Origin: Methyloglobulus sp.
GTDB lineage: Bacteria; Pseudomonadota; Gammaproteobacteria; Methylococcales; Methylomonadaceae
NCBI GenBank assembly: GCA_013141505.1
Contig: JABFQX010000013.1
Location: forward strand, 1-64,000
Length of the DNA stretch: 64,000 bases
Direction of reading: 5' to 3'
Part shown: positions 5,490 through 40,002 of the stretch, piece after piece
Position numbering within the stretch: the first letter of the stretch is position 1
How the letters are laid out: every line of letters begins with the position of its first letter
Position numbers and translations under genes: made by a program
The notes under the pieces: generated by a model
The model's database searches: none
What the model saw: only the letters and a program-made list of their open reading frames with translations
What the model was told of the DNA's origin: nothing

Positions 5490-7696
5490 ATCGGATAGGT
5501 AAATATATAATCGAACATGATGCCGATCAAGACAAACACCGAAAAGGCGGAATGGGGCAAATCCATAAAGGCTATGACCCATTTCTCAAATGTTATGTAG
5601 CGATAAAAACCTTACATCTAGATAAGGGCGATGCAATACCCTTAGAAAAAAAGTTAGAGCGCTTTCGATTGGAAGGTATCGCGCTTCGACGCCTTACTCA
5701 TAAAAACATTGTTCGCTTCTACGAATTTGATCAATTTGAAGATCAATTTTATTTGGTCATGGATTACATTGAAGGCACAACCATAAGGAAAATAATTGAT
5801 GAAAAAGGCAAGCTATCCTGGCGAGAAGTCATCGATTATGCCATTCAAGCCCTAGAGGGTTTAGTTCATGCCCATCAAAACAATATTTTCCATCGTGATT
5901 TAACGCCTTCGAACATGATGGTAAAAGAAGATGGTACGCTTATCCTCGTTGATTTTGGCATTTCACGAAATTCGGAGCAAAAAGGAGTCACTGGAGAAGG
6001 CAGCACAATTGGCACGCCTGAATATATGTCTCCAGAACAGCACTTAGCAGAAGAAGTTGATGCTAGTACTGATATCTATACCCTTGGGACAACACTATAT
6101 GAAGAGTTAACAGGTAAACTGCCCTTTTACGGAGAAGGTTTCAAAAAGGCCATCATAATAACCAGGCCTATGCCGTTACGGGAGTATGAACCAAGCATTC
6201 CAAAGCCATTGGAACAGATTATTCTAAAAGCTCTAGAGAAAAAACCGGAAAACCGTTTTACCAATGCCCAAGCCTTTATTGATGCTTTGGTGGAATGTCG
6301 CACGAAAATAGAAGCTGAAGAAAGGGATGGCAAAGCCAAAAAATCGTTTTGGCAAAAACTTTACCTGCATTTCAAACCCAAGCCAGACCCTTTAAAAGCA
6401 CCTCAAGACAGTTCTGACGACACGGTTCAAGTTAACCTAGACTTAAATAATGCCGAAGTGCCGAATGTCGGCAATGAGCAACCCCAGCCAGCACAAAGCG
6501 TAAATGTAGCTAAAACAAGAATACAAACCTCGACAGAATTACCGCGCGAACCTAAAGAAACCTATTTCCAGCCGCAAACAGAAGCCCCAGGCAAAACAGT
6601 AAGCCAACGCAATCCGATTAACATAGGGTTAACAAAAAACCGCAAAGCGATTATTGTGGTTTTATTGTCTGTGCTGGCTGCAACCCCCTTGACTAAGCAC
6701 TTAACTGGCGGTCAAAACCAAAACCCAGATGCAGATCAAAATAAATCTTCAGAGGTAGCAAAAATTGAAAATAAAACCAATCCCACCCCACCACCAACCA
6801 AAAAAACCTGGCAAACGCTGATTGCTGCACAGCCAATCCATAAATTAGAGGCCAAGCTTTCATCCGATGATTTAGCCACGTTAACCAACGCAGCGGATCA
6901 AGGCAACGTAGAAGTTCAGTTCTATCTCGCCCAGATGTACGGCTTAGGCAAGGGCGTTAGCAGAGATGAAGCAAAAGCTGACAACTGGTACGAGCAAGCC
7001 GCCAACAATAATCACGCCGAAGCGCAATTGCATCTTGGCCAACAATGGGTTGCGGACAAAGGCAACACAAAACATATCGAACAAGGTATTAAATGGTTAA
7101 CCCAAGCCGCTCGACAAAACAAAACTCAAGCTAAAGAATACCTTGGCACGCTTTTTCTGGAAGGTAAAAATCAGCCTTTAGATAAAAAAGAAGCGCAGGA
7201 ATGGATGGAATTAGTTGCCAAACAAGGCGACCCCAAACTGCAAAATAAACTGGGCAATCGCTTCTACGAAGGCAAAATAATCGATCGCGATCTATCTCAA
7301 GCCCTGCATTGGTTTAAACAAGCTGGAGACAAAGGCTTGGCTAAAGCACAACATAACGTTGGTTTTATGTACGAAGCCCAAAAAGAGATTAACACAGCGA
7401 GGATTTGGTATGAGAAAGCGGCTAAGCAAGGGTACACCAACGCACAAGTGAGTCTTGCAAGGCTAATCTGTACGCCCCAATGCAGTACACTGAAAGCCCA
7501 CAAACAATCGTTCGATTTGCTTAAACAAGCGGCAGGCAAAAAAAATCCGCAAGCCTTGCATAACCTTGCTAAATATTACCAAGTGGGTATACCCGGCTTA
7601 GTCCATAAAGACATCAAATATGCACAAATGCTGGAACAACAGGCTAAGGATGCTGAAGCAGCATTAACCAAAACGCCTACTACCAACAGTGAATAA
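5486..7696 (+). CDS. Ser/Thr protein kinase with membrane segment and Sel1 repeats
   Basis: The product has 736 residues. A Hanks-type kinase domain fills residues about 5-270, with a glycine loop around GGMGQIHKG, VAIK lysine Lys41, catalytic HRD Asp138, DFG Asp156 and the activation-segment GTPEYMSPEQ. A low-complexity linker follows, then a membrane segment near residues 388-405, then several Sel1-type repeats to the end (about 460-725), which should lie in the periplasm as a protein-binding solenoid. It overlaps the phosphatase gene by an ATGA. The expected role is to phosphorylate threonines bound by the two FHA domains encoded upstream. The external signal is unknown. No type VI secretion genes are nearby. 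Confidence 0.93.
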   Translation: MNRIGKYIIEHDADQDKHRKGGMGQIHKGYDPFLKCYVAIKTLHLDKGDAIPLEKKLERFRLEGIALRRLTHKNIVRFYEFDQFEDQFYLVMDYIEGTTIRKIIDEKGKLSWREVIDYAIQALEGLVHAHQNNIFHRDLTPSNMMVKEDGTLILVDFGISRNSEQKGVTGEGSTIGTPEYMSPEQHLAEEVDASTDIYTLGTTLYEELTGKLPFYGEGFKKAIIITRPMPLREYEPSIPKPLEQIILKALEKKPENRFTNAQAFIDALVECRTKIEAEERDGKAKKSFWQKLYLHFKPKPDPLKAPQDSSDDTVQVNLDLNNAEVPNVGNEQPQPAQSVNVAKTRIQTSTELPREPKETYFQPQTEAPGKTVSQRNPINIGLTKNRKAIIVVLLSVLAATPLTKHLTGGQNQNPDADQNKSSEVAKIENKTNPTPPPTKKTWQTLIAAQPIHKLEAKLSSDDLATLTNAADQGNVEVQFYLAQMYGLGKGVSRDEAKADNWYEQAANNNHAEAQLHLGQQWVADKGNTKHIEQGIKWLTQAARQNKTQAKEYLGTLFLEGKNQPLDKKEAQEWMELVAKQGDPKLQNKLGNRFYEGKIIDRDLSQALHWFKQAGDKGLAKAQHNVGFMYEAQKEINTARIWYEKAAKQGYTNAQVSLARLICTPQCSTLKAHKQSFDLLKQAAGKKNPQALHNLAKYYQVGIPGLVHKDIKYAQMLEQQAKDAEAALTKTPTTNSE

Positions 7697-7773
7697 CGTG
7701 CCATCAAAACAAGCTGGCAAAACCAGTATCTCATTAAAAATTAAGAAATCTTTGAACAAGTTGATTCCGATCA

Positions 7774-7858
7774 TGGTTCGACAAGCTCACCATTTATGCC
7801 CTTTAGGGTACGAACGAAATCACCCACTTACCGTTCGTCCAGAGCCTGTCGACGGGCT
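7774..7858. repeat. REP-type palindromic repeat, family 2, copy 1
   Basis: The ends GGTTCGACAAGCTC and GAGCCTGTCGACGGGC form inverted arms. The reverse complement of this block aligns along its length with 16234-16316 (shared GACAGGCTC, GGACGAACG, TAAGT, TTCGT and TTGTCGAACCA pieces). It sits in the 216-bp gap between the kinase gene and the Sel1 lipoprotein gene. Confidence 0.7.
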
Positions 7859-7912
7859 TAATCAGAGATTCCTTAACAAGAATAATTCAATACACTTTAC
7901 AGGACAATAACT

Positions 7913-9607
7913 ATGCCATTATCCAAAACAACATTACTTGTCGCCCTACCGTTTATATTGTTAACCGGTTGTGCAAGCACCAAGCCCACAGATACGGGTA
8001 TTAATTTTAATAAATTTCAACAAGATGGCTTAAATGGCTTAGCTGCAAACCGTCTGGCGGAAGCCAAAAAATTAGACTACGCTAAAAACCCCTCCGCCCT
8101 GGATTTAGCCAAAGCGGTTGAGCTTTACAGAGAAGCTGCCGATGCAGGTAGTGCCGAAGCGCAATTTGAATTATCTGGAATGTATTTCCGTGGGAGAGGA
8201 ACTGCAAAAGACATAACTAAAGCGATTGAATTTACTAAAAAATCAGCAGAGCAAGGTTATGCTCCTGCCCAAGCAAATTTGGGCACTTTCTATTTTGAAG
8301 GTAAATATCTACCCCAAGATTATGGCAAAGCCTACGATCTTACTAACAAAGCGGTAGCGCAAGGCAATGCGCTGGCGGAAAACAATATGGCAATGTTTTA
8401 TGCTAACGGTATTGGTGTTGAAAAAGATCTTAGTAAAGTACTGGAATTTATAAAGAAAGCGGCAAACCATGGGAATGATTTAGCTCAATATTCTCTGGGG
8501 TTGCAGTACCTTGGTGCTAAAGGCTTTGGGATTAAACCTGACTATCAGCAAGCCTTTGTCTGGTTTGAAAAATCCGCCCGACAAGGTTATGCTCCAGCCC
8601 AGAGTTATTTAGCGTTGATGTACTATAACGGCGATGCGGTCAGTAAAAATTCTAAAGAAGCGGCTATTTGGTTACAAAAAGCCGCCAGTCAAGGTGACAG
8701 AATTGGGCAAGCCTACTACGGACATATGCTATTCAATGGTGAAACACCGGTTATTCAAGATCAAGCCGCAGGTTTTAAATTAATCGAAGCCGCCGCTAAA
8801 CAAGGAAACGTCCACGCACATAAATTACTTACGGACATCTATTCGCGAGGTCTCTATGTGAAAAAAGACCTAACCCAAGCTATCAAATACGCAACACCGG
8901 TTGCTAAAATGGGTGATAGTTTTGCCCAAGGGGCGTTGGCAAGTAGTTACGAAGAGCTAAGTGATTACCCCAATACCTTTAAATGGGCGCAAAAAGCAGC
9001 AGAACAAAATAATTACATTGGTCAAGCAGTGCTTGGCAATTGTTACTATTTTGCAAAAGGCGTAGCTAAAGATGTCAATTTGGCAGTTCATTGGTGGCAA
9101 AAAGCGGCAGATCAGGGTTACGGCTCCGCACAAGGCCTAATTGGCGTGTCGTATGAGTTTGGTCAGGGCGGTTTACCACAAAGTTATGAGCAAGCCGCCA
9201 AGTGGTATCAATTATCGGCTGATCAAGGTTTCCCTCTGGCAAAAATTCATCTAGCGGACTTTCTCTATGAGGGCAAACAAGGCGTTCCCCAAGATCGTAA
9301 AAAAGCCATTTCGTTATACCAACAAGCCGCAAAAGGTGGTGATGAATATGCTAAGCAAAAGCTGGATGACATATTCAAACAAACGATGCTTGAACCTGAC
9401 AAGGAGGATAACAAACCAAAGGCACACAATGCGAACAGCGGCAGGCATAAACCAACCGCACGTCACTATACAAGCGTAAGCTCCAAAATAGCGACCAGCT
9501 TTGCTTCTGGGAGAAACACCCAAAATAGTGGCAAAACACTGAATGTCCCCATGGAAATGCCGTCTATTATCTTGGATAAACCAGGAATGGCTGGGCCAGA
9601 TGAGTGA
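7913..9607 (+). CDS. Sel1-repeat lipoprotein
   Basis: The product has 564 residues. A signal peptide ends in a good lipobox (LLTGC, Cys20), so it is lipid-anchored. From about residue 60 to 480 it is an array of roughly a dozen Sel1 repeats (pattern A..G...AQ..L...Y..G.GV..D...A..W). Such arrays form a solenoid for protein-protein contacts. The C-terminal 80 residues are polar and low-complexity. It follows the kinase, which carries the same repeat type outside the membrane, after a 216-bp gap with a palindromic repeat. The two may act together at the envelope; this is inference. The start is preceded by an acceptable AGGA. Confidence 0.9.
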   Translation: MPLSKTTLLVALPFILLTGCASTKPTDTGINFNKFQQDGLNGLAANRLAEAKKLDYAKNPSALDLAKAVELYREAADAGSAEAQFELSGMYFRGRGTAKDITKAIEFTKKSAEQGYAPAQANLGTFYFEGKYLPQDYGKAYDLTNKAVAQGNALAENNMAMFYANGIGVEKDLSKVLEFIKKAANHGNDLAQYSLGLQYLGAKGFGIKPDYQQAFVWFEKSARQGYAPAQSYLALMYYNGDAVSKNSKEAAIWLQKAASQGDRIGQAYYGHMLFNGETPVIQDQAAGFKLIEAAAKQGNVHAHKLLTDIYSRGLYVKKDLTQAIKYATPVAKMGDSFAQGALASSYEELSDYPNTFKWAQKAAEQNNYIGQAVLGNCYYFAKGVAKDVNLAVHWWQKAADQGYGSAQGLIGVSYEFGQGGLPQSYEQAAKWYQLSADQGFPLAKIHLADFLYEGKQGVPQDRKKAISLYQQAAKGGDEYAKQKLDDIFKQTMLEPDKEDNKPKAHNANSGRHKPTARHYTSVSSKIATSFASGRNTQNSGKTLNVPMEMPSIILDKPGMAGPDE

Positions 9608-9757
9608 CAGGCAGCCCATTAAATCGGCTGCGACTGCTTCAGAATTGAAATTCAGTCAGTTCTGAGGACGGCAGACGAAATGAAGAATAGAGACCATCAC
9701 CTAGTAGTTTAAATTGAGTCTCTCAATTATTTAACGATCTCATGAAGGTTTAAGGTC

Positions 9758-10162
9758 ATGATAATATTTGGTTCACGATCTATAAATAAATTTGTAAAAG
9801 GCGGCTTACGTCGCCAGCAGCATTGTTCCAAATGCGGTTGTCCGCAGGAATTCAAGGAAGCCCTGCATACACAGTATTTTACCTTGTACTTTATTCCAGT
9901 ATTTCCACTCGATAAAGGCGAACGGGTGTTAGCCTGCCCTCGTTGTGATGCCGCTTACGTACTACAGCCTAGCAACAATTATGCCAACCGGCCAAAGCAA
10001 GAGCCAACAGGTTCATCCGATTGGAATGAGCCGCCACCTGCCGAGAAAATAATCGTCGCTTGCATCCATTGCCATAAAGAATCACGTGTTCCGAACGATG
10101 AACGAAACCTTCTCATAACCTGCCCCCATTGCCGAAAAAAATTCAGCCGGTTTATCGCATAA
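9758..10162 (+). CDS. Zinc-ribbon protein
   Basis: The product has 134 residues. The N-terminal half has the zinc-ribbon layout common to small bacterial zinc-ribbon proteins: FGSRSINKF, CSKCGCP, a hydrophobic YFTLYFIPVFPLDKGE strand, then CPRCDAAY. The C-terminal part carries a second pair, CIHCHKES and CPHCRKKF. It can thus bind two zinc ions. It is the last gene of the signalling region, 150 bp after the Sel1 lipoprotein. No enzymatic role can be read from it. Confidence 0.8.
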   Translation: MIIFGSRSINKFVKGGLRRQQHCSKCGCPQEFKEALHTQYFTLYFIPVFPLDKGERVLACPRCDAAYVLQPSNNYANRPKQEPTGSSDWNEPPPAEKIIVACIHCHKESRVPNDERNLLITCPHCRKKFSRFIA

Positions 10163-10219
10163 GGGTTTAGCTGGCGGATAACTTTTGGCAATTCTTAAGC
10201 CGGAGGGCGAACTGGTCAG

Positions 10220-10418
10220 TTGGTCGGCTTGCCCCGTTTCACTGCTACACTTTGAGATAGCCCAATGGCTTATGTAACGCAAAATGGCGCATGAATGCTG
10301 TCGGGCGATTATTGGCTGAATCGCAACGAAGTGTTGAGAAATCGTAGCAGCCTTTAGCCGCGCTTTCAAAAGGCATTTGGGCGTTCCGCCTAAGGTTTGG
10401 CGTTCTCGACGAGATTAG
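10220..10418 (+). pseudogene. Decayed AraC-family regulator (C-terminal HTH remnant)
   Basis: Shifting between plus-strand frames recovers a recognisable AraC-type C-terminus: LPRFTATL, then a stop, then DSPMAYVTQ, then a shift, then WRMNAVGRLLAESQRSVEK, then a gap and shift, and finally VAAFSRAFKRHLGVPPKVWR ending at TAG 10416-10418. These match the order of the two helix-turn-helix units in AraC regulators (GxxPMAYLTRWRM ... LL..S..SV ... AFSRAFKR.FG.PP..WR). Stops, frameshifts and a lost stretch between the recognition helices show it is dead. No N-terminal part is visible. Confidence 0.7.
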
Positions 10419-10447
10419 GTAAATTCCGGCAATTTGTCGTGCATCAA

Positions 10448-10972
10448 TTATTCTTGCCGGTGCGATTTTTTCTGGGGAGATATTACCTGATTGACCTTGC
10501 GTGCCAATTCCTTGATGACTCGTCCCGTCACTTTTGCATGATTACCTTTTAAATCGACATAAAGCTCTTCGACTAGGCTGGCTGTTTGCACGTCAATGAC
10601 ATCAGCAATCAATGAAGATTCCAAAAAACTTGGTTTACTGTGCAGGCTAACGATTATCCAATCGGCAGCAAATTTTTTCCCCAGATGCGCTGCAGCATCA
10701 TGAAAACGGAATAAGTAGCCGATTCCTGCATTGGCAGTTTTTTGTTCATTTAGGGGGATACGAACGATGTCATAATCGCCCAACCTGCTAATAGTTTGCT
10801 CTAGCAAGGGTTGCATTGATGCGGTACGAACCCACTCTGCTTGGTTATTTGGTAATGAAGTTATATCGTTGAGTTCAAAATTCAGGATGGCGATACGTTG
10901 TGCAGCGTACCCGGTGTTACTTGATAACAGGATCAGAAATAGTGCAGCCGTGGTGTTCAGTCGATTCATCAC
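10448..10972 (-). CDS. DUF2380-type periplasmic protein
   Basis: The product has 174 residues with an N-terminal signal peptide ending near GYAAQ. The mature start RIAILNFELND and the pattern DIVRIP ... ADWIIVSLHSKPS ... LIADVIDVQT match the DUF2380 family of predicted periplasmic proteins, whose function is not established; the fold resembles periplasmic TolB-N-like domains that bind other envelope proteins. The gene is 27 bp downstream of the cupin gene and probably in the same transcript. Confidence 0.7.
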   Translation of the reverse strand: MMNRLNTTAALFLILLSSNTGYAAQRIAILNFELNDITSLPNNQAEWVRTASMQPLLEQTISRLGDYDIVRIPLNEQKTANAGIGYLFRFHDAAAHLGKKFAADWIIVSLHSKPSFLESSLIADVIDVQTASLVEELYVDLKGNHAKVTGRVIKELARKVNQVISPQKKSHRQE

Positions 10973-30900: not shown

Positions 30901-31349
30901 AAGGCTAACGCCGCGTACTGGCCAAGCTTGGCCTGAATGACAAAACTTCTGATATAACGAATGTGACCACCAACACTAACGGTAAACTGTACCTGATCTA
31001 TCACCCGTAGATGCATGTTTTCCAATACCGGAATATAGACATCCAAATAATGTAATTGCGTACTGTAAAAATGCAGTCGGAAATCAGCAATGCTCTGGCA
31101 GGGTTTCAACAAACTAACGTGATCACATGAGCCACTAATTTGCTCCAGGTGCAATATATCTTGCAGTGCATAGCGGGGCGATACTAGAGACTGATAATCT
31201 GCTGAAAAAGCCGTGTGATATTTTTGCCATAGCGGTAGACCAATTGCACTACCTAGCGCACGTTCGGCAAATTGCTTTAATGAGTGTACCCAGGGCTTCG
31301 GTAAATCGTCAGTTCTTTGGCTAACGGTGGCATTAGTGTCTTGTTCCAT
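27975..31349 (-). CDS. Large-type NAD-glutamate dehydrogenase, short form
   Basis: The product has 1124 residues. It converts glutamate to 2-oxoglutarate and ammonia with NAD. The central part carries the large-GDH signatures: GGIRWSDRPDDFRTEILDL, IPTGAKGGFVVKK, VAYDDPDPYLVVAADKGTA, GSHGYDHKALGITARGAWE and GIGSMDGDVFGNGM. Enzymes of this class are usually near 1600 residues; here most of the regulatory N-terminal region is missing. The gene starts inside the preceding HATPase gene (17-bp overlap), so the short form is not a sequencing break at a gap but a real translation unit. Loss of the N-terminal domains may alter allosteric control. Confidence 0.88.
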   Translation of the reverse strand: MEQDTNATVSQRTDDLPKPWVHSLKQFAERALGSAIGLPLWQKYHTAFSADYQSLVSPRYALQDILHLEQISGSCDHVSLLKPCQSIADFRLHFYSTQLHYLDVYIPVLENMHLRVIDQVQFTVSVGGHIRYIRSFVIQAKLGQYAALALLRQRLLATIQAMLSDKAENDGLNKLVVLAGLSWQQIAVLRAYLKYYLQLGHPVTTASIHHALLHNPTVALGLFNYFEARFRPDPAWDDPAIREEQALSPLRLQLLEHIATVADINDDRILRTLFNLIDATMRSNFHVRHQHPDFFIAFKINSLGVFDMPAPRPQNEIFVYAVDMQGIHLRAGKISRGGIRWSDRPDDFRTEILDLMQTQISKNALIIPTGAKGGFVVKKNGQQDFKAAGKKAYLTLIHGLLDLTDNYSKGKIVKLANIVAYDDPDPYLVVAADKGTASFSDMANAVAAEYTYWLGDGFASGGSHGYDHKALGITARGAWECVKRHFHELGLDTQTQAFTVVGIGSMDGDVFGNGMLLSPCIRLVAAFSGQHIFIDPNPPKTDAPFNERRRLFAMPGSSWDDYDRNLISAGGGVYLRSAKNIPVSPELQKWLGIRYKTLDGETLVRYLLTAQVDLLWLGGIGTYVKASSEKHEEVGDRNNDNVRVDAATLRAKVVGEGANLGFTQKARIEYALGGGRINTDAVDNSAGVDTSDHEVNLKILLTGLQKQGLIADYQPLFIEMTDAVCNLVLADNIAQSLSLSLEQRRNAEDPEKFLQLAERLENRGYLDRDVESFPGNKEILARPGQTLTRPELAALMAASKRYVTEQIEEAGQFLQGESCACYLESYFPAPIRGHYKAHLSTHPLAHAITATVISNKIINQCGCGFLGLEDDIAVADVVDSVCCYLTFDRALNADSLRKAIHDLDNVITADKQYPLLLQLENTLADLCSWTLMQNQKIHPDKQTLVLYRNYLKEYQGYFSSPIYTQTEAYQTRFLQYQKDGIPDELTRHMLFIANLKDFPFIVSLANATQLGILSVRQWINDVNDFLGLTAMTAQLAKLPKHDNWQRKIMVQLEIDMHRAIALLISDIVRSNSLTCTDYFNTHIEKQNRLERYRQLYQEVMAILPINILPYIALIKTLQRLLESV

Positions 31350-31800
31350 GGCTGTCGCAGATGTTATCGTAGTTAGGCTGCAATTTTTTTTTCAACTCAA
31401 GGACGTTGCAATTGTCACCTCGTGCATAGGTTACCGTATCCATTATTGAGCGGATAAAAAACAGCCCCATACCTCCTGGTTTTGGATGCTCCAGGTCAGG
31501 TGCCGGTACACTTTCAAGATCAAAACCCTTGCCGTGGTCGCAGACTTTTATAGTTAACTGACCATCTTCAACATGGATTATTATCCGCACTGTTTGATCG
31601 GTCAAGACAGGTGAAGAATGTCTGATAGCGTTAGCAGTGGCCTCGGTCAACACCAAGTTTAGCTGGTAGGCTAATTTTTCGTGGTCGCCGGAAAATTCCT
31701 TTAGTTCCTTAGCCAGACGCTCGCCAATACTGCCTATCAAATCCAGATATTTGGTCTGGTTTGGAATAGTAACTTCTACCTGAAGGACGGAAGCGCACAT
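31333..31800 (-). CDS. RsbW-like HATPase (anti-sigma / serine kinase family)
   Basis: The product has 155 residues. It shows the GHKL ATPase motifs of RsbW/SpoIIAB-type proteins: N-box LVLTEATANAIRHSS, G1 VCDHGKGFD and G2 GGMGLFFIRSIMD. Such proteins phosphorylate a STAS-domain antagonist and often sequester a sigma factor or another partner. A STAS gene lies 9 bp upstream in the same transcript, which completes the pair. No sigma factor is adjacent; instead the next gene, overlapping by 17 bp, is the glutamate dehydrogenase. Confidence 0.85.
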   Translation of the reverse strand: MCASVLQVEVTIPNQTKYLDLIGSIGERLAKELKEFSGDHEKLAYQLNLVLTEATANAIRHSSPVLTDQTVRIIIHVEDGQLTIKVCDHGKGFDLESVPAPDLEHPKPGGMGLFFIRSIMDTVTYARGDNCNVLELKKKLQPNYDNICDSHGTRH

Positions 31801-31809
31801 AATGAATAC

Positions 31810-32148
31810 CTAACTCGTATTTTCAAAAACTTCATTCAAATCGGCATAGATTTCAAAAACCGTATTCAAACGGGTTAGTTCAAACATAGCCAACACCTGT
31901 TTCTGTACATTCGCCAATGCCAGTTTTCCCGATTTGGCGGCAGCGGACTTATGTCCAGACAACAAAGCCCCCAATCCGGAACTATCGACAAAGCGTACTT
32001 GTTCAAGCTGGACAACAATCTTTTTTTCCCCACGTTCGATTAGACGCAGAATAGACTCTTTCAGTTCATTAGAATTATGCGCATCAACCCTTTCTTCCTG
32101 AATATACAAGACACCATAACCATTATTCTTTTCCAGACGCAAATTCAT
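31810..32148 (-). CDS. STAS-domain anti-sigma factor antagonist
   Basis: The product has 112 residues and is a single STAS domain. The conserved RFVDSSGLGALLSGHK loop holds the serine pair (56/57), one of which is phosphorylated by the cognate kinase in RsbV/SpoIIAA-type proteins. It is the first gene of a three-gene minus-strand operon with the HATPase and the glutamate dehydrogenase. The start is preceded by an AGGAAG site. Confidence 0.9.
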   Translation of the reverse strand: MNLRLEKNNGYGVLYIQEERVDAHNSNELKESILRLIERGEKKIVVQLEQVRFVDSSGLGALLSGHKSAAAKSGKLALANVQKQVLAMFELTRLNTVFEIYADLNEVFENTS

Positions 32149-32261
32149 TGATCTTCCTTAAAATAACCTCAAATATATAGTGTTAATAACACAATTCCAC
32201 ACAGATACAAGCAAACATTTTAATCTTCAAGATATTGTTTTTCTATATCGAATGATAGATC

Positions 32262-32410
32262 ACCCCTTTAATGTTTGCTGTCTTCATCAAACTGTGGCGT
32301 ATACGTTCCATTCGATGTCGACCAGGGAGCTATCTGGTTTTGCAATCTAGGCAAAGCTCCCTGAGCGAAGTCGAAGGGAGTTTAAACTTCATAGGGCCGA
32401 ATCAATAATC
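32262..32410. repeat. Palindromic element family 1, copy C
   Basis: The right end reads GGGCCGAATCAATAAT, the inverse of the family terminus. The left end (GATAGATCACCCCTTT then AATGTTTG) is a worn copy of it. The core has arms near CCATTCGATGTCGACC and AGCTCCCTGAGCGAAGTCGA, the same core as copy B. Confidence 0.6.
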
Positions 32411-32413
32411 AAA

Positions 32414-33934
32414 TTATCGGCTAATCCAAAAAACGGGAACATTATCAGAATGTGCGATTGGGCTTGTGTGCATCACAATTTTGCTGCCAGCCTCAGAAAT
32501 CCCGAAATACTGCTGCTTACGTCCAGCAATACGCGCAAAATCGGGTAAAAATATGGATTGATGCGTTGGAAAGGGTACCGCGTCGGACACCGTCATACCC
32601 GTTGCCGCACCGGCATCAGCAGGTTGCCGTAGGCCAACGGCTTGGCTACCGCCACGAAAGGGAATTTGGACGAATTGCAATGCTGTAATAGGTAAATTGT
32701 TGGCAACTGACAAATTGGCGTAATTTGTAGATGATATTCGTCGATCCGCTGTCAAACAAAAGCCTTTGGTGTTTCCAATGGCGGAAGTTGAACCACCTGC
32801 CGACTTGCACTTAATGTCATTTATTGTTTGGGCAAGCGCTTTGCCATCGGCAAACTGCACTTGCAGAAACTGCAATCCTTCCACGGGCAAGTCATTAGCC
32901 ATCGAGAAATTGGCAAAACCTGTGCTTAAAGTGCTAAGTTTGGATACCAGACAAAACTCACCCATCGCGCCAGTGCTTGCTGTTGAATTTCCGAACGATC
33001 TGCATTCTGCGCCCATTGGCGTTCCCAGAAGATGTCCTGCGCCATCATCGGTATAACGGTCTCTGAAGGAAACCTGTAAAAATTGTAGGCTCGCAGCCGA
33101 CAACTTATTTGCTACTGCAAAGCCACTTAGGCCGGTAGATGGTGTCTTTAGATCAGAAGCCAGACAAAACCCTCCGGCATCCTGGTTTACAGCGTTAGAC
33201 CCACCAATCGAAATACACTTTGCGCCAGTCACTGATAAAGGTGACGTTTGAACACCGGCATCGCGAAAAGCGACTTGGAGAATCTGTAAACTAGCCACAG
33301 CCAAGCTATTGGCAACAGAAAAATGCACCGGGGCTGTTACTGATGGCATTAGGTCTGCGGCGATGCAAAAATCACCAGTCTTGCCAGTCGCACTAGATCT
33401 GGATCCACCTACTGAGATACATTTGGAACCTATTGCCGTTCCTGGGCGAGGCAGAGGTATCGAACCGATAATTTTACTGCCGTCTCGAAACGAGACTTGC
33501 ATAAACTGCAGGCCTTTCATAGGCAAAGCATTGCCAACAGAAAAATGAGCGGGTGGCGTTTTTAAAGCGTTAATATCCGCCGCAAGACAAAATGCCCCCA
33601 TGCGCCCTGTTACACCGGCTTTTGAACCAGCTCTCGAAATGCAGCTAGTGCCTTTTGCTGCCCCCGCTATCAGTAAGTTATTCTCCGCTAACATCGAATA
33701 TTCCGAGGCTGCTTTAGCCGATTCTGAAGCCTTACAAGACCCCGTGGCATTTTTGGCTAAAACATTGGAATCACCCCTTACAGTGCATTTGCCGGAAATA
33801 TCCTCGGCAATCAGTATGCTTTTGCGATTGTTTGCTTTTTGTATTTCCGCAAGAGAACGCAAATCAACCGCCTGAGCGGAAAATATTGCTAAAGAAAAAG
33901 CGATGCCTACCGACAGAATTATTATCTTTTTCAT
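32414..33934 (-). CDS. Secreted repeat protein with two-cysteine modules
   Basis: The product has 506 residues from the ATG at 33934 (GGGGA site; 20-residue signal peptide ending SAQA). About five copies of a roughly 70-residue module follow (residues about 85-440), each with a KCIS.GGS...G..G.FC pair of cysteines and, 15-20 residues later, FSVAN.LP...LQFLQV.FRDG. A partial unit precedes them. The C-terminal 70 residues are different. The same module occurs once in the 108-residue product of the divergent gene at 34373. I know no named family for it. The linked C39 peptidase and barrel suggest it is exported or assembled at the surface, in the manner of amyloid or matrix proteins. Confidence 0.8.
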   Translation of the reverse strand: MKKIIILSVGIAFSLAIFSAQAVDLRSLAEIQKANNRKSILIAEDISGKCTVRGDSNVLAKNATGSCKASESAKAASEYSMLAENNLLIAGAAKGTSCISRAGSKAGVTGRMGAFCLAADINALKTPPAHFSVGNALPMKGLQFMQVSFRDGSKIIGSIPLPRPGTAIGSKCISVGGSRSSATGKTGDFCIAADLMPSVTAPVHFSVANSLAVASLQILQVAFRDAGVQTSPLSVTGAKCISIGGSNAVNQDAGGFCLASDLKTPSTGLSGFAVANKLSAASLQFLQVSFRDRYTDDGAGHLLGTPMGAECRSFGNSTASTGAMGEFCLVSKLSTLSTGFANFSMANDLPVEGLQFLQVQFADGKALAQTINDIKCKSAGGSTSAIGNTKGFCLTADRRISSTNYANLSVANNLPITALQFVQIPFRGGSQAVGLRQPADAGAATGMTVSDAVPFPTHQSIFLPDFARIAGRKQQYFGISEAGSKIVMHTSPIAHSDNVPVFWISR

Positions 33935-34372
33935 TGTAGAATTCCCCTGAAATGCCGCCTTACGGTATCGCAATGATACGCAGGCTTGAAAACACCGTCC
34001 ACGCTAAAATTATTATAAACAGCACATAAATATTTTATATTATTGATTTTAATAATCTTATTGCTATAAGCAACAACAACTATTTATACCCCTGCAATTT
34101 AAATTAGTTTCCAGAACGAGTTAGGTCTTATTTTAAAAGCCTTAAATAGCTTATATTAATATTATTTAATCTTATTTTATTAAGCCACCCTTAAATTATG
34201 TTTGACAATAAAATCAGACGGGCTTAATGTTGAAGACAGGATGAAGGCAGGGAGGCATGGATGTTAGCCTCGATATTTCTAAATAAAACGCCGACGAAAG
34301 GCTAAATTAGTTCACGTTCAAGATGCATCTTTTAGCCCTAAGTTCGGTATCTACACACATTAGGAGAAATAT
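33935..34372. promoter_or_regulatory. AT-rich divergent promoter region
   Basis: These 438 bp separate the two repeat-module genes, which point away from each other. The stretch is markedly AT-rich, with poly-A/T tracts around 34020-34200. It must hold both promoters, but no single -35/-10 pair stands out. A good ribosome site (AGGAGA) precedes 34373. Confidence 0.5.
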
Positions 34373-34699
34373 ATGAAAACAACAAGAATGCTACTAATCG
34401 GCGCAGTCACAATGGCAATGTCTATCGGTTCTGCTGTCGCAGCTGATGACTTTCATGCACTGACCGTTTTAAAAGCAACGCCTGCACCTCTGCAAGATGA
34501 CGCATTGGCAAGCACAGAAGGCGGCTCAATATGCGCCACCCCAAATGCTTCTACATCGGTAAATAATGGCGGCCCTGGCGGTGGTGTTAGTTTGTGCTCA
34601 TCACTTGGCTCAGTAACAAAAGGTGCTTTCCATTCTGTATCTAACCAACTTCCCGTTACCGCTGCAAACTTCTTGCAAGTAATTGGTTGGGTGCCATAA
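34373..34699 (+). CDS. Small secreted single-module protein with double-glycine motif
   Basis: The product has 108 residues. A Sec signal peptide (to about residue 24, AVAA) is followed by LQDDALASTEGG (residues about 41-52), which fits the spacing of double-glycine leaders cut by C39 peptidases (L...xL....GG). The remaining 56 residues contain two cysteines and FHSVSNQLPVTAANFLQV, the same module that is repeated in the 506-residue protein. The next gene in the same direction encodes a C39-type peptidase. Cleavage after the GG is therefore a direct prediction. It may be a minor subunit, nucleator or bacteriocin-like peptide; none is proven. Confidence 0.8.
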   Translation: MKTTRMLLIGAVTMAMSIGSAVAADDFHALTVLKATPAPLQDDALASTEGGSICATPNASTSVNNGGPGGGVSLCSSLGSVTKGAFHSVSNQLPVTAANFLQVIGWVP

Positions 34700-34739
34700 G
34701 CTAAGCAATTACATCATCACACGATGATTTAAGCTCAAA

Positions 34740-34767
34740 GGCCTAGGTAAGGACGCTTACCTAGGCC
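34740..34767. other. Perfect 12-bp hairpin between module gene and peptidase gene
   Basis: GGCCTAGGTAAG and CTTACCTAGGCC pair perfectly around GACG. The T-run is poor (GATGGTTTGTCTTT), so it may be a leaky terminator or an RNA-stability stem that lets the small protein be made in excess over the peptidase. Confidence 0.75.
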
Positions 34768-34890
34768 GATGGTTTGTCTTTACTGAGGATAGATGCCAAA
34801 AATAATGCATTAATTATCGTATTGGTTTCAATGCAAACAAGTGATCTAACACTCGAAGATAGTTTCAAACAACACGGCAAGAATAATGAT

Positions 34891-35751
34891 ATGAAAAAGC
34901 CGTCCGCATCGGGCAAAAACAGCCCAAACCATTTCTTTTTAAACCAAAATAAAATTAATGTTACGTCTTGGTTAACAAGTAACATTCAGCCAACTATCCA
35001 TGGCTTTTATCGTTATAATCCATACCGTCCTTTCAAAAAAATATACCGTCTGTTTAATATTCTGATTGTATTGTTTATTTTTCCATTCATGGCGAACGCG
35101 TTGCCATCCGGCGAAAGTGGCGACGAAATAAGTACAGTCCCCGTTCGTCATACCTTTAAAGAACTCCGCGACCAAAATGTGGTTAAGCAACAACTTGACT
35201 ATTCTTGCGGTGCCGCTGCGCTAGCTACCTTGATTTCAGGCTATTATGGTGAAAACACCTCTGAAAAAGAATTGCTCGAATTGTTGAATGCTCGGCTGTC
35301 TAACATGAGCGATAAAGAAAAATCACGTAAAAAACTCAATGGTTTTTCGCTATTGGACCTTAAATTGGTTGCCCAGCAAAAAGGTTACAAAGCAGCCGGT
35401 TTTAAACTGACAATTGACCAACTTAAACAGCTTTCTGCGCCGGTGATAGTCTTTGTATTGCCCATGGGTTACCACCATTTTGCAGTTTTACGCAGTATTG
35501 TCGGTGATCGTGTCTACCTCGCCGATCCAGGCCGTGGCAATCTGAGAATGAGCGTCGCTCGCTTTGCAGACGAGTATGGCGGCATTATTTTTGTATTAGG
35601 TAAAGCGGGAGAAGAAGACATAACGCTGCATAAGTTGCTAGTTGGTCGACCCGACGATTTCACCAAACCCGACGTGCGTAATTTTATTTACCGTACAAAC
35701 TTTTTCACCAAGATGGCTGTTGACTTTGCCCTTCGAGTACGCTCACCTTAA
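34891..35751 (+). CDS. C39-type cysteine peptidase, membrane-anchored or exported
   Basis: The product has 286 residues from the ATG at 34891; the open frame extends up to 39 codons further (TTG at 34774, ATG at 34831) and none of the starts has a clear ribosome site. A hydrophobic segment (YRLFNILIVLFIFPFMANA) directs export after an unusually long, basic N-terminal part. The peptidase domain has the C39 triad: Cys106 in DYSCGAAALAT, His196 in YHHFAVL and Asp212 in LADPGRG. C39 domains cut after GG. This one lacks an ABC transporter, like FapD of the Pseudomonas amyloid system. It sits between a GG-motif protein and an outer-membrane barrel gene. Confidence 0.88.
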   Translation: MKKPSASGKNSPNHFFLNQNKINVTSWLTSNIQPTIHGFYRYNPYRPFKKIYRLFNILIVLFIFPFMANALPSGESGDEISTVPVRHTFKELRDQNVVKQQLDYSCGAAALATLISGYYGENTSEKELLELLNARLSNMSDKEKSRKKLNGFSLLDLKLVAQQKGYKAAGFKLTIDQLKQLSAPVIVFVLPMGYHHFAVLRSIVGDRVYLADPGRGNLRMSVARFADEYGGIIFVLGKAGEEDITLHKLLVGRPDDFTKPDVRNFIYRTNFFTKMAVDFALRVRSP

Positions 35752-35919
35752 CTGACAACAATGAATGCCAAATTTTGGGTTCCATAGGTATTGGCTTTGC
35801 ATCAATGCACATTTGCTTTGACCTGTAGAATGATTACAAGCGTGACAGGAGCTAATCGTTCACTGACCAAAGTAAAACGACTTTTTAGGGGCAATAGACA
35901 ACAGTTTTAACGATAAGCC

Positions 35920-36046
35920 TTATTGATCCGGCCTTATGAAGTTTTAATTTCCCTTCGGCTTCGCTCAGGGAACATTACCGAGGCGTTCCCTGAGCGCAGC
36001 CGAAGGGTAGCGGCTATTTCAAACATCAAAAGGCCGAATCTATAAC
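35920..36046. repeat. Palindromic element family 1, copy B (complete)
   Basis: The termini TTATTGATCCGGCC and GGCCGAATCTATAAC are inverted repeats of the family. Inside, CCCTTCGGCTTCGCTCAGGG and its near-perfect complement TTCCCTGAGCGCAGCCGAAG form long arms. This best-preserved copy fills most of the gap between the peptidase and barrel genes; the rest of that gap is AT-rich. Confidence 0.75.
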
Positions 36047-36214
36047 ATCCCAAATAAAGCACTTCTTAGCGTTAATTTCTATATTAAAGCGCAGTAAAAA
36101 CACCTTAATTTATTTTAATACATAAAGATATAATGTACTTATAATAAATTACTTATTGTTTATAATATAATTATATGATAAATATTGTATTTTAATAAAA
36201 CAGTTGCCAATAAT

Positions 36215-37429
36215 ATGAAAAAAATAGCCGTTTTATTTGTTAGGGTCATTGTGGTTTACTTTTTCCTTAATACAGCGTTTATGGGGATCAGTCATAACGG
36301 TGTTCTGCACGCACAAAGCAATGCACCCAAAAAAGGCTTTGTTACGATACGGGAACATGAAAAACTTAAGCAGGAAATGGAAACGCTTAAGAAGCAAATG
36401 CAAACACTGTTAAAAAAACCTCCGTCGTCGGATTCGGTGGCAAATAAGCCTGTTTCTCCAGCGACTTTGTCGCAAGCAAACAAAGATTCGTCTCAATCGA
36501 GTGCCAAAACAAATACCCAGACTGACCGTAGTGCTGGTTTAGCTGAGGGTGATCGCAAAAAAGAAGCCGTAGAGGCAAAACGGCAGTTGGACACTTTTTT
36601 GCGTAGCCAAAAATTATTATTCAAAAAAGGCGAGCTTCAGACCGAGTTGGATTTGGCGTATACAAAAAATAATCATAGAGCGCCCTCTTGTTCGTCAATT
36701 CCGAATCCAGACCCGAAAGGGAAGCCGCTCTTGAATTGTTTACCAGGGCAAGACAACCGTTCTGCAGGAGCGACAGCCATTGCCCGTTACGGTCTCTTAG
36801 GCAATGTTGAGTTTGATCTTACCGTGCCTTACAGTTATGTTGAACAGGACACATTTGGTTTAGAACATCAAGAGCGCACCGGTTTGGGTGATGTTGGCCT
36901 AGGCCTTCGATATGCGGCTTGGCGGGAAGATGGCACATTACCAGACATCATTTTGAATTTGAATGGTACCGCTCCCACTGGCGATAACTTATTAGGCAAT
37001 GGCTCAGGAACTGTTGGAACGTCTATGACAATGGTTAAAACCTTCGATCCTGTGGTGCTATTCGGAAATCTCGGCTATGCGACAACTATAGGCGTGTCTG
37101 GCAGCAATCAAATTCCTTACTCGCTCGGCATGGGTTTTTCTTTGAATGATCGGGTCAGTTTTTCCATGAGCATGGCTGGTTCATCTACGTTAAACCGTTC
37201 TACAGGCAAGATCTCTCTTCCGGATTCATCAGGTAAACTTGTGGATCATTCAATTACAGTCTCTAGCCAAGACATTAATACGATGCAATTCAGCACAACC
37301 ATACAAATGAAAAAAAACCTTTCTGTTGAACCATTCGTTAGTTTCGGCCTAACGAAAGAATCGCCTGATTTTGCTGTGGGCATACGCTTGCCTTATCGAC
37401 TTGATGGCAAATATCCCTTGCCTTTTTAG
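36215..37429 (+). CDS. FapF-like outer-membrane barrel with coiled-coil N-terminus
   Basis: The product has 404 residues from the ATG at 36215. After a signal peptide (to about HAQS) comes a heptad-like segment HEKLKQEMETLKKQMQTLLK (about residues 49-68), a polar linker, and then alternating beta-strand sequence of about 270 residues ending in a terminal phenylalanine (YPLPF), as in outer-membrane barrels. FapF, the trimeric amyloid exporter of Pseudomonas, has this same order of periplasmic coiled coil and barrel, and lies beside the C39 peptidase FapD. The function here, export of the module proteins, is inferred from that parallel. Confidence 0.7.
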   Translation: MKKIAVLFVRVIVVYFFLNTAFMGISHNGVLHAQSNAPKKGFVTIREHEKLKQEMETLKKQMQTLLKKPPSSDSVANKPVSPATLSQANKDSSQSSAKTNTQTDRSAGLAEGDRKKEAVEAKRQLDTFLRSQKLLFKKGELQTELDLAYTKNNHRAPSCSSIPNPDPKGKPLLNCLPGQDNRSAGATAIARYGLLGNVEFDLTVPYSYVEQDTFGLEHQERTGLGDVGLGLRYAAWREDGTLPDIILNLNGTAPTGDNLLGNGSGTVGTSMTMVKTFDPVVLFGNLGYATTIGVSGSNQIPYSLGMGFSLNDRVSFSMSMAGSSTLNRSTGKISLPDSSGKLVDHSITVSSQDINTMQFSTTIQMKKNLSVEPFVSFGLTKESPDFAVGIRLPYRLDGKYPLPF

Positions 37430-37478
37430 CCTACCTGTATTTGCCGTCGCCCGTGAGAATTCAGGCCAAAAGGCAGGC

Positions 37479-37570
37479 TATAGAATCGGCTTTGCGAAGC
37501 CTTAACTCCCGTTCGCCTTTATGACTTTAGGCGAACGGCTTCAAACACATTAAATAGCCGAATCAATAAG
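37479..37570. repeat. Palindromic element family 1, copy D
   Basis: The left end TATAGAATCGGC and right end TAGCCGAATCAATAAG are the family termini. The core differs from the other copies (CGTTCGCCT / AGGCGAACG), so termini are conserved while cores vary. Confidence 0.65.
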
Positions 37571-37622
37571 TTACTTACAGCTACAGCGTTAAGAAAAAAT
37601 CAAGCGCAGTTAAACCATAATA

Positions 37623-38885
37623 TTAAAAATCAAGCACAAAAACATCAACAGCTTTATTAGTATCACCGGGAACCAAATTGCTCGCCATGGAAAGATACGC
37701 CACATGATGCCCGTCGGTACTCATCGTGGGCAGCAAACTGTGATTTTTCCCCCGAACGCCTTTTGAATTGGCACTGACCAAATAGGTTGCGTTAGTCACT
37801 TGATCTTGGATGAAGATATTACTCAAATTGTCTGGCGTAACCGCTTCAAACGCCAGAAAATGCCCATCCCCACTGATGCTGGGGTTGCCGCCGGCTAAAG
37901 ACAAACCTGGGACTTCGGCAATCGCAGGCGTGATTTGTCCATTAAAAACGTTATAGATGAGCGTCATGCCGGCTGCTTCAGGCGTATCAGGATTTACAAC
38001 GCCAAGAAATACTACGAATTGGCCATTAGCGCTGATCTTAGAATCGGCACCACCCAGAGGAAGGAGGTTACTTGTGAGATTAATGGTCATCTTTGACAAG
38101 TTGTCATGGACAAAAGCATCCCAGCCTTTATTTTTGTCGTTAGCGACCAATGTTTTAGACAGCGATGTGAAAGCAACAAACCGACCATCGCCGCTAATAG
38201 TGGCCAACCCTGCGCCACTATATTGGTCGCCTTGACGGCCGCTAGTGCTGACACTGACCCGTGTTGTTGTTTTGGCCTTGAGGTCACGGACGAAAATATC
38301 GCTGACACCGTTGGTATCGCCTGGCACCAGGTTGTCGGCAAAAGATTCAAAAACCACAAAGCGGCCATTGGCGCTAATACTGGCCTTATTGGAACTATTA
38401 TTACCCTGAACTCCCTTGGAACTGACACTGACTAAGCTGGTGGTATGGGTGGCATTGTCGTGGATTAAGACATCATTCATGTTATTGGCGTCACCTTTGG
38501 CGAGCGTATCAACCCAACTTTCAAATACCACGTAACGACCATCGGCGCTCATACTGGGAAACATGCCGGGGCCTGCAACACCGCTGGAACTCACGCTCAC
38601 CCGCGAGGTTTTGTGGGTCAAGCGATCATGAAAATAGACTGCTTCAGCATCTTTTACGCCACCAGGGACTAAATTGGTAGACGTTGAGCCAAACGCGACA
38701 AAACGGCCATTGGCGGAAATGCTCGGACTCGATGAGGTTGATGCACCTCGATTAGCCTGCACATTAGCGGAATTGACACTTACCCGCGTCGCTTGGGCAT
38801 TAGCAATACCGCACAGTGTACTTAACAAAATACCTACATATAAACCACAATATATTCTTGATAACGATTGATTTTTTTTAGTCAT
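37623..38885 (-). CDS. Secreted TolB/PD40-type beta-propeller protein
   Basis: The product has 420 residues with a signal peptide (to about NAQA). About six or seven repeats of the form SISANGRFVAFES.A.NLVPGDTN...D.FV.D......TRVSVSS.G follow, which is the PD40/WD40-like propeller pattern. Such proteins sit in the periplasm or outside the cell; their role is generally unknown. The gene converges with the barrel gene and may or may not belong to the same system. The start has an AGGAAT site. Confidence 0.8.
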   Translation of the reverse strand: MTKKNQSLSRIYCGLYVGILLSTLCGIANAQATRVSVNSANVQANRGASTSSSPSISANGRFVAFGSTSTNLVPGGVKDAEAVYFHDRLTHKTSRVSVSSSGVAGPGMFPSMSADGRYVVFESWVDTLAKGDANNMNDVLIHDNATHTTSLVSVSSKGVQGNNSSNKASISANGRFVVFESFADNLVPGDTNGVSDIFVRDLKAKTTTRVSVSTSGRQGDQYSGAGLATISGDGRFVAFTSLSKTLVANDKNKGWDAFVHDNLSKMTINLTSNLLPLGGADSKISANGQFVVFLGVVNPDTPEAAGMTLIYNVFNGQITPAIAEVPGLSLAGGNPSISGDGHFLAFEAVTPDNLSNIFIQDQVTNATYLVSANSKGVRGKNHSLLPTMSTDGHHVAYLSMASNLVPGDTNKAVDVFVLDF

Positions 38886-39166
38886 TTTTTATTCCTTATA
38901 CTTTAGTTAAAGTTAAAAAATACGTCATCGCATGATGCCGGCGCTAAATGGATACTTTAATATACGCAATACCCCTGCCTACACATGCCATCAATCAGGT
39001 TTAAACAAATAATGATATTAACGGCGAAGTCCTGCGTATTCTGCATAGTACATAGAAAATCGCAGAATAGCGATAATAACCGGTCAAACAGAGCCAGTTG
39101 CCAAACCTAACGGCTGTCACTAACTCATTTAAAATCAATATATTGGATCTGCTTGTGTATCCTGAC

Positions 39167-39224
39167 ATTAGCCAAGACCATTGATCCCGTGCGGCTTACC
39201 AAAGAATCGACTGATTTTGCAGTG
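39167..39224 (+). pseudogene. Fossil of a second barrel gene (C-terminal scraps)
   Basis: The plus strand reads CGGCTTACCAAAGAATCGAC followed by TGATTTTGCAGTG (LTKESTDFAV), nearly identical to the C-terminus of the intact barrel gene (37348-37380, LTKESPDFAV). Just before it, TAGCCAAGACC matches TAGCCAAGAC at 37265-37274, with the intervening 60-70 bp lost. It is a remnant of a duplicated barrel gene. The rest of the 401-bp gap 38886-39286 shows nothing else I recognise. Confidence 0.7.
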
Positions 39225-39286
39225 CCCCCTTGCCCCTCAGACTGCTTTTGCTTTTTGGAAAGGCTAGCATCCTCTGCTTTTTTAAG

Positions 39287-39820
39287 CTAGGTAAAATGAA
39301 GTCTCCGCTTACTATGACTCAGCAGGATCCCTGCTAACAGTATTAATCCCGTCATAAATGCACTCAATGATCCGGGTAATGGCACACTGGAAACGCTCAC
39401 TCCAGAATGCAGTGTTAAACGGGTCATTGGTTCGATAATATCGTAGGGCTGGTGACCCGGTAGCCCTGTACCCAGGAATTCAAAACCAACGGAAAAGCCC
39501 GTTAAAGTTGCACCCGCCGAAATACCTTGGTTAAGCGCAAGTGCATCATAAAAACCATTTGACGGCAAGCCAACAGAAGGTTCGTTGACAATGGCATCCC
39601 AGCCTAAAGGGGCAGCCTTGACAGTAAGATTGCGGAATTTACTGGGTGAAAAATACATCGTAAATTCATGTATGCTTTCTGATGACCTATCATTTTTGAC
39701 TGCAAACGCATATTCCCAATAATTGCCGTCAACGTGCTTTGCCTCATAATTTATGGTGGCCGCCCGTGCCGGCTCCATAAAACTTAACCCTATCAGTACA
39801 ACGTAAATTATGTTTCCCAT
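39287..39820 (-). CDS. PEP-CTERM (VPLP-type) exported protein
   Basis: The product has 177 residues from the ATG at 39820, which has an AGGAA site. There is a signal peptide (MGNIIYVVLIGLSFMEPARA), a small beta-rich domain, and a C-terminal sorting signal: VPLPG, a hydrophobic span and SKRR. This tripartite end is recognised by exosortase, which cuts the protein and releases or anchors it at the surface in exopolysaccharide producers. No exosortase gene lies in the window. Confidence 0.8.
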   Translation of the reverse strand: MGNIIYVVLIGLSFMEPARAATINYEAKHVDGNYWEYAFAVKNDRSSESIHEFTMYFSPSKFRNLTVKAAPLGWDAIVNEPSVGLPSNGFYDALALNQGISAGATLTGFSVGFEFLGTGLPGHQPYDIIEPMTRLTLHSGVSVSSVPLPGSLSAFMTGLILLAGILLSHSKRRLHFT

Positions 39821-40002
39821 TGTATTTCCTATTGATCTAGCCAAAATAATCATTCTCTAATCAGAGTGGGTAGTTTAACTTAGGTTAATGTGCATGTGCA
39901 TGTACTATAAAGAACTTGATACATTACTTATTGGTTGATAAAAATTAATTGACAGGCACGGATTGATAGCTGAACGTAAAAAAGGCTTAAACATTCATGC
40001 CT

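Follow-up and report, generated by a model that had tools for sequence, protein, structure and literature searches.

A putative second leader for a periplasmic C39 peptidase on a two-cysteine protein encoded beside a FapF-like barrel in Methyloglobulus

In a stretch of 64,000 nucleotides from Methyloglobulus sp. (contig JABFQX010000013.1; the window) neighbouring genes code for a large and a small protein built of the same two-cysteine module, a C39 peptidase and an outer-membrane barrel resembling FapF of the Pseudomonas Fap system. Coordinates without a locus prefix are positions within this window. Judged by its sequence, the small protein (108 amino acids; 34373–34699, plus strand) appears to be doubly tagged, for Sec and for a periplasmic C39 peptidase. 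We consider it probable that the protein is exported by Sec, cut a second time by the periplasmic C39 peptidase and released through the FapF-like barrel. The step beyond export, formation of a polymer, is rather doubtful when taken alone. The small protein would enter via Sec and lose its first tag to signal peptidase, with the second tag, a DF.AL box and a C39-type leader ending in a double glycine (GG), remaining in place. The C39 peptidase would bind this leader at Leu -12 and Leu -7 and cut after GG. The cut would free a module of 57 amino acids with two cysteines, which would exit through the barrel and, once outside, probably serve as a building block of a surface or matrix structure. 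The order of these steps is the one we infer.

The gene of the small protein, the likely C39 substrate, diverges from that of the large module protein. A model of ten modules of large proteins gave the small protein a score of 23.9 bits, while the best of 6000 shuffles reached 12.3 bits. Behind the Sec signal, at residues 40–51, lies the C39-type double-glycine leader LQDDALASTEGG, and the order of elements is Sec signal, DDFHALTVLKATPAPLQDDALASTEGG, then SIC. With the end of the signal peptide read from the sequence, the post-Sec leader comprises residues 25–51 (34445–34525, plus strand) and consists of the DF.AL box followed by L(-12)...L(-7)...GG. A C39 cut is predicted after residue 51, which would leave a mature part of 57 amino acids. 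The consensus given in the cited passages for substrates of ATP-binding cassette (ABC) exporters is L(-12)XXXE(-8)L(-7)XXXXG(-2)G(-1) (PMC6959990, PMC6363468). The leader matches it at Leu(-12), Leu(-7), Gly(-2) and Gly(-1) and departs from it at -8, where Ala replaces Glu; position -4 is Thr. The corresponding leader of a relative in the Methylococcales (L038), LQDSELASTEGG, fits the consensus exactly. In seven small proteins F27, A29, L30, L45, A46, E49, G50, G51 and C54 were invariant, the latter being a Cys three residues past GG. Neither the post-Sec leader nor the loss of GG in most of the large proteins (see below) had been part of the original prediction for this locus.

A periplasmic-type C39 peptidase is encoded by the following open reading frame (ORF) of 325 amino acids (34774–35751, plus strand, first ATG at 34891). 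A hydrophobic N-terminal segment, read from the sequence by eye, precedes the C39 domain (35176–35598), which stands alone without an ABC part. The match to Pfam Peptidase_C39 had an E-value of 1.2e-23, and the original description as a C39 peptidase without an ABC transporter was thus correct. Compared with the NCBIfam models the protein was closer to FapD (101 bits, cut-off 330) and FilB (87.7 bits, cut-off 475) than to the ABC-type C39 models. Alignments of 9 and 10 relatives showed Cys145, His235 and Asp251 to be invariant. These catalytic residues argue against an alternative in which the C39 protein would act as chaperone or adaptor, binding the leader and passing the small protein on to the barrel uncut. 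Such non-cutting C39-like domains are known in toxin exporters according to the passage cited (PMC6363468). On the other hand, changing the active-site Cys of FapD to Ala abolished the secretion of FapC, as stated in the part of the Fap study cited here (PMC5557850). Taken together, we regard an adaptor as quite unlikely and favor a C39 protein that would cut the leader.

The FapF-like outer-membrane barrel (36185–37429, plus strand; ATG at 36215) consists of a signal, a coiled-coil helix, a plug-like helix and the barrel from about residue 151. A structural model with a predicted local distance difference test (pLDDT) score of 80.8 placed an N-terminal helix (residues 55–77) and a second one (122–142) ahead of the barrel, in line with the coiled-coil-plus-barrel protein that had been proposed. 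The best solved relative in a sequence search was FapF (E 6e-16), which also made up the top 18 rows of a Foldseek search with the model (E 1.6e-19). Residues 131–406 aligned with FapF over a length of 242 residues, with a Z-score of 27.6 and an identity of 26%. The scores with NCBIfam were 76 bits for FapF (cut-off 700) and 50.8 bits for FilC (cut-off 630). Together with the similarity of the C39 peptidase to FapD and FilB, the fit to FapF by sequence and by fold agrees with the earlier idea of a machine related to Fap. Pfam labels the barrel Phenol_MetA_deg, and the COG4313 channel 4rl8 adopts this fold too (Z 23.8, 12% identity, Foldseek E 9e-10), as one would expect of an uptake channel for hydrophobic compounds of the COG4313/phenol-MetA type that neighbours the C39 gene for another reason. 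Yet FapF was closer on every measure, and such a barrel was present in 75 of 80 related C39 loci, in 73 of these within 3 kb, so that we assign the uptake channel a very small probability. The possibility of a plain porin, raised in the original prediction, thus met a barrel that is FapF-like and at the same time shares its fold with an uptake channel. We favor the view that the barrel would serve as the exit of the small protein. An N-terminal SPOR (peptidoglycan-binding) domain scored above the Pfam cut-off in the barrels of four other loci (L020, L036, L161 and L038), while the window barrel showed none in the Pfam scan.

The co-occurrence of these genes was surveyed in 311 genomes of the order Methylococcales with a small-protein profile made from 7 sequences and a C39-clade profile made from 10. 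The small-protein profile matched ten genomes, nine of which were accepted; the tenth match, a coiled-coil-like ORF of 222 amino acids in G524 (25.3 bits), was rejected by eye. The C39-clade profile reached at least 370 bits in exactly the same nine genomes with the next best match at 198 bits, and the fetched loci of all nine contained a FapF-like barrel. The check proposed earlier, whether module proteins occur without a C39 or barrel neighbour, gave a mixed result: at the genome level leader-bearing small proteins were never found without this C39 clade (9/9), but the fetched stretches L172–L175, with small leader proteins of the Methylocaldum group, contained neither C39 nor barrel. Of eight genomes searched within the genus of the window, one had the cassette. 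A class sample of 369 genomes yielded four matches with the module profile, two of them weak; the weak module matches of this search, G294 and G179 (E 4e-4 to 5e-4), both contained an in-frame stop and were attributed to chance. In a phylum sample of 398 genomes the small-protein profile matched only the window's genome and, weakly, two others (G1020 and G1080, E 8.7e-4 and 2.7e-4), which we also took as chance. The cassette is rare and patchy. The window's own genome has a second C39/barrel locus nearer to Fap (L030, from G000:C85:62000-80000, at 6765–10601) with 145 bits for FapD and 151 bits for FapF, both under the cut-off, and a protein of 179 amino acids with the leader VDDSLLDKMRGG. One contig, L034, is titled as a Methyloversatilis universalis metagenome-assembled genome and was also found in G444:C65; this genome is placed in the order of the window, beside Methylocaldum-like genomes, and the title may be wrong.

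The large module protein (506 amino acids; 32414–33934, minus strand) starts with the ATG at 33934, whereas the ORF considered earlier began at a TTG further upstream. It consists of a Sec signal, a leader-like stretch without GG, a degenerate module, five two-cysteine modules and a conserved C-terminal stretch. A hidden Markov model located the degenerate first module at 33677–33790 (4.8 bits) and modules 2 to 6 at 33473–33646, 33254–33424, 33050–33223, 32840–33010 and 32642–32812, all on the minus strand. The originally described pair of diverging module proteins with about five copies and one copy is therefore specified as five strong copies and a degenerate one, with a single copy in the small protein. 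The module has about 57 amino acids and the pattern C.S..GS...G..GFCLASDL......FS.AN.LP...LQF.QV.F.D, in which C3, S9, C21 and Q51 were invariant in ten copies from two genomes; the 12 cysteines of the large protein form six pairs along the sequence. Neither module protein (P0001 and P0002) matched a Pfam or NCBIfam family above the cut-off, as anticipated for a module unlike known ones, and the sole match at an E-value of up to 1 was RumC with 12.9 bits (cut-off 40).

Large proteins were seen in six of the nine cassette genomes and additionally in G233, which corresponds to contig L033. Their N-terminus resembles the leader of the small proteins (in L033 AGLQGTTPFPLQNTALGAKEFGAEC beside AGLQGASPAPLQDGVLAATEGGLFC). 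Read by eye, GG was lost in six of seven large proteins (window, L020, L033, L038, L163 and L165) and retained in that of L161. Because GG is missing from most of them, the large protein is not an obvious C39 substrate. The proposal that the repeat protein is the substrate is therefore less well supported: in the window genome its GG is not intact, and the GG leader, the direct indication of a C39 substrate, sits on the small protein. At its C-terminus the large protein of L033 (L033:8914-10899) carries RTX calcium-binding repeats (70.6 bits, cut-off 23). RTX repeats fold outside the cell, and their presence on this copy suggests that the large protein works there. It may have descended from the same kind of protein as the small one and mostly lost GG, and is probably an uncut multivalent partner or scaffold.

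The generality of the leader was assessed with a matrix trained on 18 leaders from the first loci and applied to C39 loci. ORFs were selected as Sec-like by a rule of our own and counted in six frames, so that spurious ORFs inflate the numbers given here, and many of the loci are related to each other (many are from Paraburkholderia). L035, which is the training locus G013, and its near copy L036 were removed from the 80 loci to leave 78 held-out loci; L178 was dropped because it is identical to L052. Among the Sec-like ORFs a leader of at least 10 bits was found in 69 of 439 lying within 3 kb of the C39 gene, in 6 of 172 at 3–6 kb and in 4 of 172 beyond, while shuffling of the near ORFs gave 6 of 2195. 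Forty-four of the 78 loci had such a leader, and many were without. A second set of 19 loci showed the leader in 37 of 88 Sec-like ORFs within 3 kb and in 1 of 39 beyond, which amounted to 16 of the 19 loci. An untrained pattern that follows the consensus in the literature, [LIVM]xxx[EQD][LM]xxxxGG, occurred in 19 of 509 near ORFs (0.3 expected) and in none of 329 far ones. With the looser ending G[GAS] the counts were 47 of 509 (14.5 expected) and 2 of 329 (6.7 expected). In the window the small protein, itself part of the training, was the sole one with a leader of at least 8 bits among 34 Sec-like ORFs.

A quick tree of the C39 peptidases was built from 103 rows after the removal of 16 of 119 that were copies or closely related. 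The window C39 fell into a clade of 13 rows (Shimodaira-Hasegawa-like approximate likelihood ratio test 100), separate from the FapD rows of Pseudomonas. Leader types were labelled mechanically by their endings (EGG, TAG, RG, TG and others), with L037 and L207 labelled otherwise than in the reading by eye. The endings required 30 changes on the tree compared with a mean of 65 in shuffles, none of 200 being as low. EGG and TAG required 2 and 3 changes, respectively; RG and TG were only partly clustered with 12 and 10 changes versus 21.1 and 16.1 in shuffles. We read this as one secretion principle, Sec, a periplasmic C39 cut and a FapF-type barrel, in several clades: Fap, a Fil-like one, that of the window and at least one more. 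The C39 clade with TAG-type leaders, which belongs to other Methylococcales (L071, L103, L188, L190-L194), is accompanied by rows of small secreted proteins with leaders like LTDxQMDxVTAG, of which L071 has up to six.

In the group around Pseudomonas khazarica the FapD cut-off was exceeded in 42 of 59 genomes, and 20 of the 42 fap loci were fetched (L207–L226). In all 20 one protein adjoining fapD carries [LIVM]xxx[ED][LM]xxLRG[RK] directly behind its Sec signal, e.g. LKDQELATLRGR, a pattern that was written after seeing these leaders; it occurred 20 times in 170,555 ORF residues, once per locus. The trained matrix at 8 bits passed just 12 of the 20. The leader protein of L207, the one locus checked, was confirmed as FapE (347.7 bits, cut-off 250). 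From the sequence, the ending LRGR/LRGK is a candidate for the FapD cut site, with the predicted cut at about residue 40–45 of the FapE precursor. According to the cited part of the Fap study, FapE peptides were unseen by mass spectrometry in the first ~70 residues, N-terminal peptides were missing for FapE alone among the Fap proteins, the FapF linker was named as another possible FapD target, and the target of FapD was called unclear with no canonical C39 sequence recognised in Fap proteins (PMC5557850). A review passage has FapD thought to process the FapE N-terminus and FapF (PMC12822426). As homologues of fapD and fapF have been found together in five further phyla, in the words of the passage cited (PMC6173800), the FapD/FapF-type pair is already known; what is new is the substrate family of the window and the view of the leader as a ticket shared by such systems. 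Titles and abstract openings of the open-licence literature searched gave no description of a post-Sec C39 leader.

We lean towards the view, with somewhat less confidence than for the window itself, that a Sec signal followed by a C39-type leader may serve Gram-negative bacteria in general as an export ticket. Every one of these peptidases, FapD, FilB and those of at least two further clades (EGG, which includes the window, and TAG), would cut a leader type of its own and hand the product to a FapF-type barrel, and FapE would be the substrate of FapD, cut after the conserved LRGR/LRGK. The leader points to FapE as the target, which turns the FapD question into a test by point mutation. If the view is right, the uncharacterized small secreted proteins found here and there next to C39/barrel pairs, among them DUF6160/FilA, form one class of exported substrates, and the leader offers a means of discovering further surface proteins.

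Several observations weigh against the proposed route. A leader of at least 8 bits within 3 kb was missing from 24 of the 80 C39 loci, and 3 of the 19 loci of the second set had none. In G444 and G445 the C39 gene and the barrel gene are at different loci. AlphaFold2 with four alignment rows gave a pLDDT of 28 for the large protein, and this model was discarded. The Methylocaldum group has small proteins at several genomic places, and 20 of these showed a mean identity of 78% in the propeptide and 44% in the core. This speaks for the route, but the paralogues were chosen by a pattern requiring the leader, which favours leader conservation. Their cores, L165 excepted, were not matched by the module model, and the leader is thus the more constant part. 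Four of the 20 cores have lost both cysteines. The remaining 16 have two and none has a single one, which fits the expectation for a disulfide that the pair might form. A paralogue at L166:8685-9008 has Ala in place of both core cysteines (QTASG...NTALN beside QSCSG...NTCLN).

A conserved leader, a variable core, small size, cysteine pairs and many paralogues are also what one would expect of bacteriocins or signal peptides, whose leader would be removed in the periplasm to give a diffusible antimicrobial or signal. Leaders of relatives weakly matched Bacteriocin_IIc (E 0.012) and CTB bacteriocin (E 0.014), both under the cut-off, however. In the window, no further immunity-type gene was seen between the genes of the small protein, the C39 peptidase and the barrel. 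Relatives of the small protein recur five- and sixfold within a large protein, and FapE, the closest studied leader protein, has been reported as a fibre component. We therefore consider bacteriocins or signal peptides improbable, though less so than an adaptor role of the C39 protein, and prefer a module that would act at the surface or in a matrix.

As to the surroundings of these genes, a possible terminator with a 12-pair stem and a T-poor tail lies between the small gene and the C39 gene (34740–34767, plus strand); the terminator scan as a whole was no richer than shuffles (5 vs 4.2). The promoter scan, with 10 sites compared with 9.8 in shuffles, was given no weight, and an Rfam scan of 31000–40000 gave no match. 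Inverted repeats of the CCCTGAGCGAAG.CGAAGGG type, presumably similar to repetitive extragenic palindromic elements, were found beyond the large gene (32347–32386) and in the interval that separates the C39 gene from the barrel gene (35943–36007). A secreted protein encoded at 39287–39853 (minus strand) has a VPLPG...hydrophobic...basic end, which we take to be a PEP-CTERM-like sorting signal.

Finally, we compared the cassette with known systems. With the COG4313 channel 4rl8 it shares the barrel fold, at 12% identity and a Z-score below that of FapF. The peptidase-containing ABC transporters PCAT, LahT and ComA have the C39 fold and the leader consensus in common with it, but the window C39 has no ABC transporter; because the leader follows a Sec signal, the cut would be periplasmic, unlike that of PCAT. 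The putative Fil pilus (FilA/DUF6160, FilB, FilC) is similar in that FilB matches the window C39 (P0003, 88 bits) and FilC the barrel (P0004, 51 bits), and in Pseudomonas khazarica a FilA/DUF6160 relative with a leader ending in TGQ stands beside a FilB-like C39. It differs in the substrate family and the C39 clade, and the window scores are far under the cut-off. Fap of Pseudomonas (FapA–F) likewise pairs a C39 of the Sec type, FapD, with FapF, a trimeric-type barrel that has a coiled coil and a plug, and the post-Sec leader of FapE has the same shape as the window leader in 20 of 20 fetched loci. The window module proteins, however, match no FapA, FapB, FapC or FapE, the C39 of the window has its own clade and is, like the barrel, far under the FapD/FapF cut-offs, and the window leader ends in GG, whereas FapE leaders end in GR or GK. 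With its ABC-less C39 with catalytic residues and its FapF-type barrel with a preceding helix, the window has what characterizes FapD/FapF-type secretion. On its sequence, then, the cassette is not a member of Fap, though it is related to it.

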